Positions 46,389-52,054 of a DNA stretch of 64,000 nucleotides are shown one piece after another. A program made the translations under genes and the position numbers. The stretch is from Bdellovibrio sp. SKB1291214 (lineage in GTDB: Bacteria; Bdellovibrionota; Bdellovibrionia; Bdellovibrionales; Bdellovibrionaceae), in NCBI RefSeq assembly GCF_002209355.2, contig NZ_CP106855.1, forward strand, positions 992,001 to 1,056,000, read 5' to 3'. The notes below the pieces were generated by a model. The model had not been told where the DNA came from, searched no databases, and was given only the letters and a program-made list of their open reading frames with translations. Numbering within the stretch: the first letter of the stretch is position 1; each line of letters begins with the position of its first letter.

Positions 46389-46763
46389 CTACTGTGCTTC
46401 GATTACTTCCGCGTTGTTGTCTGATTTTTTATCCGACACGGCAGCTGGCTTTGCTTCAGAACGTCTGCTTACAGAAGCTGAGCCACGAGTGGCCATTGAA
46501 CAGCAGTAAACGATGCCGTTTTCGTTGGAAGCTGTTTTATAGTTAGTAATAGAGAATGCGCGAGAGGAATCACAACGCTTTGCCATCTCCATGCTCAGCT
46601 CAACTTCAACATCGGCGAAAACTTCACCGCTTACAAAGTTGCAGTACATGCCCGTGTTTGCTGCCATTTTGTCACGTTGTTCCTGACGTGCCTTGAAAGT
46701 GCCGGAAGCACAAGCAGACAATAAAAGTAATGAAGACATAGCGACAACAAATAGACGAATCAC
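46389..46763 (-). CDS. Small lipoprotein within the dcw cluster
   Basis: 124 residues. Lipobox LSAC (Cys 18). The mature part has a few further Cys (YCNF, KRCD, YCCSM) and a disordered Ala/Lys/Ser-rich tail. No known family. It is inserted between murD and ftsW with terminator-like hairpins on both sides, so it is probably an independent transcript. AAGGAGTGCTTTG lies before the ATG. Confidence 0.65.
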   Translation of the reverse strand: MIRLFVVAMSSLLLLSACASGTFKARQEQRDKMAANTGMYCNFVSGEVFADVEVELSMEMAKRCDSSRAFSITNYKTASNENGIVYCCSMATRGSASVSRRSEAKPAAVSDKKSDNNAEVIEAQ

Positions 46764-49340: not shown

Positions 49341-49510
49341 GATGTGCGATTCCCCTATATCCTTGGAAATTGATTTTTGCTTGGAACTTTAAGGGTTTAG
49401 CACGTTTTCGATTTTAAAAGCAATGGCAAATTTATAACTACTTAATATCATTACGGAAAAATAAAAAAGATAAGCCACCTGGCACTGTTTTAAGTTCCCT
49501 GGAAAACTTA

Positions 49511-49552
49511 AAAAGGTACGTCCTTACCTTAATAGGTAAGGGCGTACCTTTT
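49511..49552. terminator. 18-bp hairpin, double copy of the AAGGTA-N6-TACCTT motif
   Basis: The arm at 49511-49528 pairs with 49535-49552 over 18 positions with one G-T wobble, around a TTAATA loop, with A-run and T-run ends. Each arm alone also folds as AAGGTA-N6-TACCTT. It lies 18 bases after the curlin-repeat lipoprotein gene and can end its transcript. Confidence 0.88.
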
Positions 49553-49569
49553 GCTTCTTTGCTATGGGA

Positions 49570-50115
49570 TTACTTTTGGATCACGACCGCACTATTGCTG
49601 CCACCTGATTGGACGATGTTTGCCGTGTTGCCGTTACCCTGTTGACTGACGGATGCGAAATTCGAAGAACCTGTTTGTTGCACATCTGCTCTATTGTTAT
49701 CACCCACTTGCACCACACAAGCTGTGTTGCTATCGCCCTTCTGATAAATTGTCGCCGAGTTGTTTGCTCCTGTCTGGTTTGCGCCGGCCACGTTTGTAGA
49801 GCCTTCTTGTCTTAAGATCAGTTGGGCCTCTACTTGCGTTTTCGCATCACAGGCAGGAACCACCACTTCACCATCACCGTCTACTATGTTGCCGTCGCCA
49901 TCGATCACTTCGCCTGGCGCCAATGGCACATCATCTATGATCTCTGGAGAACTGATATTAGGTGGCCCCTGTGGTTCCTCTCCATCTGTGATCGGCGTAT
50001 AATCTTGTGCACTCGTAGCTCTTAACGAGCCAAATTGAACATCGGTACCCAACTGAGAACATGCCGTCATAAACAACGGAGCCGTTACCACTAGAACCAA
50101 CACTGATGCTTTCAT
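49570..50115 (-). CDS. Lipoprotein with seven curlin-like repeats (putative amyloid)
   Basis: 181 residues. Lipobox FMTAC (Cys 19), then an acidic Pro/Gly region with calcium-site-like DGDGN and DGDGE, then from residue 102 seven unbroken 11-residue repeats of the form x-Q-x-G-x-x-N-x-A-x-x (for example QQTGSSNFASV, SQQGNGNTANI) and a final IQK cap. The Gln/Gly/Asn spacing is that of CsgA/CsgB curlin repeats. It therefore looks like a membrane-anchored amyloid or nucleator. No csgE, F or G gene is in view. GGAGG five bases before the ATG fixes the start. Confidence 0.8.
   Translation of the reverse strand: MKASVLVLVVTAPLFMTACSQLGTDVQFGSLRATSAQDYTPITDGEEPQGPPNISSPEIIDDVPLAPGEVIDGDGNIVDGDGEVVVPACDAKTQVEAQLILRQEGSTNVAGANQTGANNSATIYQKGDSNTACVVQVGDNNRADVQQTGSSNFASVSQQGNGNTANIVQSGGSNSAVVIQK
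49582..49812 (-). repeat. Seven tandem 33-bp units encoding curlin-like repeats
   Basis: Seven in-frame units of 33 bp encode the pattern xQxGxxNxAxx. The codons differ between units while the Gln, Gly, Asn and Ala positions are kept, so the array is old and held by selection on protein rather than a recent DNA expansion. Confidence 0.8.
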
Positions 50116-50462
50116 GAAATCCTCCATAAGGCTTCACAAACGAGTAAAGCAAAACGCATGCACAGGGTGTTTCGATGGCCAGATAAAATGAAATGAAGTT
50201 TGAGGTGTTTGAATTCTGACGTTGCAAAATTTTTGATCGAAGTCCGCGAAGGTTCCATAACATCTCATCCGAGGGAACCTGCGGATTCATAACACAAACT
50301 GAATCTGCCTGAGACGAATGAGCCTTTGAAATCAATGCAAGAGGTGTTTCCATGCCTATAGAAACGATGAAACATCAGAAAGCGATGATAGTAACACTAA
50401 GACATGTAAATGAAACGCCAACGGCCTCGACAGCTGAAACCTAGAAGGTAAGGACGTACCTT
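50116..50462. other. Intergenic region, about 345 bp, with hairpins
   Basis: No supported gene. AGGTTCC near 50244 can pair with GGAACCT near 50275. The AAGGTA-N6-TACCTT hairpin at 50445-50462 lies at the 3' end of the AHSA1-type gene. The rest should hold the promoter of the curlin-repeat lipoprotein. Confidence 0.4.
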
Positions 50463-50464
50463 TT
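50445..50464. repeat. AAGGTA-N6-TACCTT hairpin, single copy
   Basis: AAGGTA, loop AGGACG, TACCTT, followed by TT. The core GGTAAGGACGTACC is the same as in the double copy at 49511-49552 and nearly the same at 42665-42683. It abuts the stop of the minus-strand gene at 50463. Confidence 0.6.
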
Positions 50465-50945
50465 AGCCTTCGTCGTCCAAGTATGCTTTGAGTTCTTGCA
50501 TGTGATACTTCCACCCGACCTGGAAGTCTTTAAGGAGTTTCCCACCCAGCTTTTCTGGGAATGCTTCCCAGCCTGTGTGGCGAACTGTCATGGTGCGAGT
50601 TTTACCTTTGTCTTCGATCAAATAAGAACACTCTGTGGAGACTTTCACATCCCAGGTTTTCTCACGCCAAGTAAAAGTAATGGATTTATTGGGAACAAGT
50701 GAAAGGACTTTACCGGATGCGAGTTGCTCGTTACCTTCGTCATCTTCCCAAGCTTCGCGGAACTTTCCCCCGACCTTAGGTTCAAGGGCGACGTCATCGC
50801 CCCACCAGTTTTCTAGATCGTCCGTATCAGTCAGGGCGCGCCAGATTTCTGCCGCCGTCGCCTTCACAGTGATCGTGATATTGATTTCCTGACTGTTGGA
50901 ATCCTCCCCCTTTTTTGAGGGAGGAATGAATTTCGATCCAGACAT
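50463..50945 (-). CDS. SRPBCC / AHSA1-like domain protein
   Basis: 160 residues, soluble. The Bet v1-like AHSA1 pattern is clear: TITVKATAAEIWRALTDTDDLENWWGDD, VGGKFREAWED, GKVLSLVPNKSITFTW, then TMTVRHTGWEAFPE and a C-terminal helix KLLKDFQVGWKYHMQELKAYL. Such proteins bind small hydrophobic ligands or act as Hsp90 co-chaperone relatives; the ligand is unknown. It starts five bases after the outer membrane protein gene ends, so the two are an operon. Confidence 0.88.
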   Translation of the reverse strand: MSGSKFIPPSKKGEDSNSQEINITITVKATAAEIWRALTDTDDLENWWGDDVALEPKVGGKFREAWEDDEGNEQLASGKVLSLVPNKSITFTWREKTWDVKVSTECSYLIEDKGKTRTMTVRHTGWEAFPEKLGGKLLKDFQVGWKYHMQELKAYLDDEG

Positions 50946-50950
50946 ATTTA

Positions 50951-51973
50951 TTAGAACAAGTTGATGTTCGTAGACAGAGCCACGTTCGTTCTGTCGTCAC
51001 GTACGTCTTTTGGAGTGAACTGGATATTTGGGTACAAGTAAATATCACGAGTTACGGAGATACCAAAGCCTACAGATTGGTATGGCTCAAGTTGGATGTA
51101 ACGATCGTTGATCTCGTATTTAGAGAATTGCAAGTAACCGAATACTGTTCTGAAAGAGTAAGTGTCGTTGAACGTGTATTGCAAGAATGGGAACAAACCC
51201 ACACCGATATCAGAACGTTGGAATCTGCCTTGGTTTTGCAATGCTAAGTAATCTGGATCCGTCAAAGCACCATTGTAAAGATACTTAGACAAGCTCAAGC
51301 TTACGCCACCATTCCATTTCGAAGTCCCGAAATTAGCCAAGAATACTTGAGACAAAGAAATGCTTCCCAAATAGTTTTGGAATTTGCTTGTGTCTTCGTC
51401 TGTGAAGTAAGTCGTAGAAACGCTTGTGCTCATTTGAGTGCCCAAAGCTTTGTAACCACGGCTCCAGCTTACGAACGGAGTCGACATTTCATAACGAGGA
51501 AGTACAGCATCTGCTTTTCTGCCTTTACGAGTATCAGCTGCTGGCTTCGTGATATCACCATGGAATGGATCGTTGATCGTCAGACCAGAACCAAAACTGA
51601 TGCTGTCTTTTTGACCGATACGTACATTCACACCCAAGTTACCAGAAAGGTAAGACAATGATTCCGCTGTCGCAGAAGCACGGTAGTTCGGGCGAATTGA
51701 ACCAAATGGATCGTTGATGGAGCCACCAGAATAAGAGAAATCTGATTTAAGTGACCATTTAGATTTAGAACCCAAAGATGCACGCATACGAGCATCAGTG
51801 ATCTCTTCGTCAACGTCCTTCATTTTTTCTGTTGGCTTCTTAAGATCTTCGATTTTTGAAGTCGAAGTGTTTGTCGAAGAAGCGGCACCAATCTTTGCAG
51901 AACTTGATTGCGCTCCGGCTTGCATCGCAGAGAAAGTAAGAGCTGCGATAAGTAGAGAAAGATTTTGTTTCAT
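50951..51973 (-). CDS. Outer membrane beta-barrel protein
   Basis: 340 residues: a signal peptide (MKQNLSLLIAALTFSAMQAGAQ), a Ser/Thr-rich and charged region (residues 23-68), then about 12-14 amphipathic strands from SKWSLKSDFSYSGG to DDRTNVALSTNINLF, with a terminal Phe. No known family. AGGAGGACTA precedes the ATG. It is inserted between murF and the AHSA1-type gene, and could be a transport or structural barrel. Confidence 0.75.
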   Translation of the reverse strand: MKQNLSLLIAALTFSAMQAGAQSSSAKIGAASSTNTSTSKIEDLKKPTEKMKDVDEEITDARMRASLGSKSKWSLKSDFSYSGGSINDPFGSIRPNYRASATAESLSYLSGNLGVNVRIGQKDSISFGSGLTINDPFHGDITKPAADTRKGRKADAVLPRYEMSTPFVSWSRGYKALGTQMSTSVSTTYFTDEDTSKFQNYLGSISLSQVFLANFGTSKWNGGVSLSLSKYLYNGALTDPDYLALQNQGRFQRSDIGVGLFPFLQYTFNDTYSFRTVFGYLQFSKYEINDRYIQLEPYQSVGFGISVTRDIYLYPNIQFTPKDVRDDRTNVALSTNINLF

Positions 51974-52054
51974 TAGTCCTCCTAATAACGAGGACTGTTA
52001 TATGTCACCCGGCCGGTTTTCACCAGCCGGAAAGTGGCACTTCACCAAAAATGA

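Follow-up and report, generated by a model that had tools for sequence, protein, structure and literature searches.

Curli are sticky amyloid fibres produced by many prey bacteria of the predator Bdellovibrio, and their subunits, the curlins, are known as secreted proteins that need the CsgG channel and that stack edge to edge. In E. coli, CsgB acts as the cell-bound nucleator of curli. The curlin unit has been defined as an N-$-hydrophobic-$-hydrophobic-$-Q-X-G-X-X motif, with two motifs per curlin repeat (Sleutel et al. 2023, PMC10192328), and the number of repeats per protein ranges from 4 to 62 (PMC10192328). About 2% of the genomes encoding curlins are devoid of CsgG, and the products concerned are referred to as orphan curlins (Sleutel et al., PMC10192328). 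The main text of PMC10192328 contains no occurrence of "lipo" or "Bdellovibrio", and a lipid-anchored curlin was not found in the open-access literature.

Here, we describe a protein of Bdellovibrio sp. SKB1291214 that we classify as a curlin-repeat lipoprotein, probably membrane-anchored, and not as a member of the curli (csg) system. The 16S gene of this genome contains the published Bdellovibrio-specific primer Bd529F (PMC7585534) without mismatch, in keeping with that genus. Its gene occupies positions 49570..50115 on the minus strand of the window (the whole 64,000-nucleotide stretch of DNA analysed) and encodes 181 aa, from an ATG at 50115 to a stop codon at 49570-49572. This start is preceded by a GGAGG ribosome site (50121-50125) and is supported by the orthologs, which also begin at MK(S/T); an alternative ORF of 185 aa starting at 50127 corresponds to the identical frame opened at a further-upstream ATG. 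Sequence inspection, a regular-expression lipobox scan and ortholog conservation identified residues 1-18 (MKASVLVLVVTAPLFMTA; 50062..50115, minus strand) as a lipoprotein signal peptide, followed by the predicted lipidated residue Cys19 (50059..50061, minus strand), with a Ser at position +2. In the alignment of the four orthologs, the lipobox F-M-T-A-C(19)-S-Q is invariant throughout FMTAC-SQ and the hydrophobic stretch is variable. The signal peptide gives way to an acidic linker rich in Pro, Asp, Glu and Gly (residues 20-88; 49852..50058, minus strand), which is probably disordered, as suggested by its low confidence in fold prediction.

Within this linker is the motif DYTPITDGEEP (49973..50004, minus strand), a kind of motif shared with two further lipoproteins encoded in the genome. 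Motifs of the DYTPVVDGEEP form occur in exactly three places in the genome, all in otherwise different lipoproteins (window 49973-50004; L170, G000:C1:2169396-2169427; L171, G000:C1:2538179-2538210), as well as in similar lipoproteins of three congeners, and a reversed control pattern returned none. This element might serve as a tag for sorting or binding. The lipoprotein at L171 (also L027, G000:C1:2538062 onward) has a similar leader (E 7.5e-4 in a single-protein search), after which come a Cys and a repeat-rich domain of another kind (SISNGAGQNLS... type).

The C-terminal part of the protein consists of curlin motifs. The initial annotation had reported seven perfect consecutive units after a lipobox and an acidic linker, with one Cys in VPACD and another in NTACV, and all of these elements proved real. 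The seven 11-residue QxGxxNxAxx units span residues 103-179 (49579..49809, minus strand) and are preceded by an eighth, degenerate one, AQLILRQ (residues 97-103; 49807..49827, minus strand), which was recognised from the sequence, from a strand in the model and from the motif scheme of PMC10192328. Cys89 (VPACD; 49849..49851, minus strand) lies directly ahead of the predicted solenoid, while Cys133 (49717..49719, minus strand) belongs to the unit NTACVVQ, at a strand position that, going by the motif scheme of PMC10192328, would face outward; both are invariant in the four orthologs. Together, the seven perfect units and the degenerate one follow the PF07012 motif with its 22-23-residue repeats and, at two motifs per repeat, these eight motifs make up four near-symmetric curlin repeats, a number at the bottom of the known range. 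A chance low-complexity repeat was ruled out by shuffling residues 89-181, as none of 200,000 shuffles gave even two consecutive units. The Pfam family Curlin_rpt (PF07012) matched in three stretches with an E-value of 1.3e-19 and 70.2 bits, for a gathering cut-off of 20.7 bits. Among NCBIfam models, the best match was CsgB with 63.3 bits, far from its equivalog cut-off of 165, and CsgA scored 55.1 bits, far from its cut-off of 160.

Structure prediction points to the same family. An AlphaFold2 model based on 16 aligned curlin sequences assigns one strand to each motif, eight in all; pLDDT block means are 80-88 across the repeats, and confidence is low in the linker and around C89; this alignment-based model was used instead of a single-sequence prediction of the mature protein, whose overall confidence was low (pLDDT 54). 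Foldseek searches with the model retrieved the E. coli CsgA fibril (8enq) with an E-value of 3.5e-4, the sole match below 0.001, followed by 8c50. VIA-align superposed the model on 8enq with a Z-score of 14.6 (93 residues, 1.6 A) and on 8c50, the Pontibacter R15.5 curlin, with a Z-score of 9.0, these two being the top entries of good rmsd; the other folds in the VIA list were dismissed as relatives, their Z-scores being much lower or their rmsd poor. Sequence profile searches returned 8enq and 8c50 too. The repeat domain is thus predicted to be a stacked beta-arch solenoid of the CsgA type, in line with the earlier suggestion of a beta-solenoid; a model without stacked strands, the outcome that would have spoken against this suggestion, did not occur.

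We lean slightly towards a reading of this protein as a membrane-fixed curlin stub, in which a lipoprotein carries a four-repeat solenoid on a flexible acidic linker and stacks on another curlin solenoid. Export would proceed through Sec, with lipidation at Cys19 and Lol-dependent sorting to the outer membrane, and for this reason the protein would have no need of the CsgG channel. The linker would keep the solenoid away from the membrane, and a further curlin solenoid would stack on the open end strands, in the way that curli fibres are built. Given this edge-to-edge stacking of curlins, the solenoid edges offer a natural binding surface. C89 and C133 are probably joined by a disulfide, which would lock the N-terminal edge, or else they would link two copies. 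Such a stub may act as a tether, a cap or a nucleation seed, its partner being another copy or curli from another cell. The low confidence of the linker and C89 region, together with the single-sequence pLDDT, weighs against this reading. The same predicted fold, which matches the CsgA fibril subunit, could also serve a homotypic surface amyloid, copies stacking into short membrane-bound fibres or patches for adhesion or biofilm formation. All seven units retain the N/Q ladder residues on which stacking depends, yet a lipid anchor on each subunit would limit fibre growth away from the membrane, and the degenerate first unit with C89 and C133 could block one edge, so that we regard such fibres as fairly unlikely.

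The predicted anchor sets this protein apart from the curlins sampled in other bacteria. A scan of named genomes yielded 182 curlin ORFs at 74 other loci, spread over many phyla, a sample drawn by repeat motifs and not exhaustive. By pattern scan and reading, a convincing lipobox was found in none of the 182 ORFs, the two pattern matches falling inside ordinary signal peptides, and a Cys in or after the repeats was present in nine of them. In this sample, near-identical curlin clusters (L086, L089 and L091) were observed in Qipengyuania flava and in metagenome-assembled genomes labelled Flavobacteriaceae and Microbacterium, contigs of the latter two being probably misbinned. One Flammeovirgaceae contig (L113) carries at least seven tandem curlin genes, and no CsgG was found within the stretch examined.

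The gene is located in the gap between murF and mraY (window 49341-52054, loci L053-L057), a variable cargo site inside the essential dcw cluster. Depending on the congener, this gap measures ca. 0.9 to 6.6 kb and contains unrelated genes, whose translations resemble methyl-accepting chemotaxis, periplasmic binding and outer-membrane proteins, as well as CBS-domain proteins and a two-component system. Here, the curlin gene is separated from murF by a gene for a 160-aa AHSA1-domain protein and another for a 340-aa predicted outer-membrane protein. Downstream, a 19-bp hairpin formed by the GGTACGYCCTTACC palindrome (49511..49552; RNA fold -27.6 kcal/mol, z -7.4) probably terminates the curlin gene and separates it from mraY. 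Upstream, the intergenic region 50116..50462 (minus strand) is partly conserved in the four genomes carrying the gene and, judging from the sequence, is its probable own promoter region; searches of Rfam returned no match around the gene. The initial annotation had associated the lipoprotein with the division genes, a link that was not sustained: because the gap is variable, the gene has its own terminator and most congeners lack it, we do not consider it a division gene, and a division-cluster function was rejected as the main reading. Allowing at most one mismatch, the GGTACGYCCTTACC element was detected at 23 genome sites and its reversed pattern at 3; the 23 include 49511-49552, 50447-50460 and about 20 more, some paired as terminator-like hairpins. 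Another gap of the cluster, between murD and ftsW, also harbours a predicted lipoprotein (window 46389-46763; LLSAC, 124 aa), present in several congeners too and matching no family over cut-off.

Four of the 24 congeners, namely this genome, G016, G018 and G023, carry the gene, and the three orthologs, with lipobox and repeats, occupy the same place upstream of mraY. No further match over cut-off was obtained in the 140 genomes surveyed for the order or the 368 surveyed for the phylum; a contig scan with the whole protein matched leader peptides and revealed no relatives. In two congeners, P-type ATPases matched the leader, which was attributed to chance. In a mraY and murD tree of the 24 congeners, the four carriers form one group (support 98/94), with G019, which lacks the gene, as sister. 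This distribution fits one gain, loss elsewhere being also possible. Loss of the repeat pattern in all relatives, which would have spoken against the initial annotation, was not observed: the invariant columns of the ortholog alignment comprise the lipobox, both C89 and C133, and the greater part of the Q/G/N ladder. G016 and G018 differ by 49 synonymous and 2 nonsynonymous changes, and for most other ortholog pairs synonymous sites are saturated; by this sequence comparison, the curlin lipoprotein gene is under strong purifying selection. A narrowly distributed gene at a variable cargo site is what might be seen if a curlin fragment had recently been captured and fused by chance to a lipoprotein leader, with no important function. 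This scenario appears very improbable in the face of such selection, of the architecture and cysteines that all four orthologs have kept, and of the conserved upstream region.

The partners available to a membrane-fixed stub depend on the curli genes of the host. The genome consists of one contig, is 99.99% complete and contains no second curlin over the Curlin_rpt cut-off, and neither CsgG nor CsgF gave a match at E<=10. The absence of exporter genes that had been noted in the neighbourhood extends, for CsgG and CsgF, to the whole genome, leaving a predicted lipid-anchored curlin without either. The soluble partners with the same repeats that had been envisaged were not found in the genome. 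Nucleation of a self-made CsgA is thereby excluded and, with no other curlin in the genome, only two sources of a partner are left, further copies of the protein or another cell. CsgG-family proteins were detected in 80 of the 368 genomes of the phylum and in none of the 24 congeners, and the genomes having them were without curlin repeats, bar one sub-threshold match in G238. A decayed curli operon was rejected on the lack of CsgG and CsgF matches in the genome itself and of CsgG matches in the congeners; since CsgG-family proteins are absent from the latter, it is likelier that a single gene was captured or built locally.

With CsgG absent, the protein may also never leave the periplasm, which counts against the membrane-fixed stub and leads to the main rival of an outward-facing protein. 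According to this alternative, the solenoid remains on the inner side of the outer membrane, where, as a small and stable repeat spacer or oligomer, it would stiffen the envelope or attach to peptidoglycan or other envelope components, with no link to curli. In E. coli, outer-membrane lipoproteins sorted by Lol face the periplasm by default. The Ser at +2 fits ordinary outer-membrane sorting, and cysteines capable of forming a disulfide suit the periplasm, as does the missing CsgG match; restriction to one clade (4 of 24 genomes) is nevertheless odd for a basic envelope part, and we hold a purely periplasmic role to be possible, if somewhat doubtful.

Should the membrane-fixed stub face outward, its partner might be supplied by the prey. 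Curli protect E. coli from B. bacteriovorus, according to PMC12584612 and its reference 17, and curlins of different species are known to cross-seed one another (work cited in PMC10192328). An outward-facing protein would be expected to meet the curli of the prey, and the protection conferred on E. coli makes it attractive to suppose that the outer-membrane-tethered stub docks onto, caps or is held by the curli of prey or prey biofilms. We consider this unlikely as it stands. If true, an anti-predator defence would now offer the predator a point of attachment or would have been neutralised as a barrier, and a predator-borne curlin raises the question of whether it changes the attack on curliated prey.

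A lone lipid-anchored curlin would mean that the amyloid repeat lends itself to use as a membrane-fixed module, with an export route other than that of the known curlins. Like the orphan curlins, this protein comes from a genome with no CsgG match. An ordinary curli subunit is soluble and secreted by means of an ordinary signal peptide, in place of which the Bdellovibrio protein has a lipobox. The likeness to CsgB extends to 43% identity over the repeats and to a near-regular 11-residue spacing of Q. In contrast to CsgB, which is non-lipidated, secreted and dependent on CsgG and CsgF, the Bdellovibrio protein has a lipobox and a long acidic linker, no CsgG or CsgF match in its genome and no CsgA to nucleate. 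With the CsgA-type curlins (Pontibacter R15.5, 8c50; E. coli CsgA fibril, 8enq), it shares the same repeat motif and the predicted beta-solenoid class, and it departs from them by having only four repeats, its predicted membrane anchor and its location outside a csg operon.
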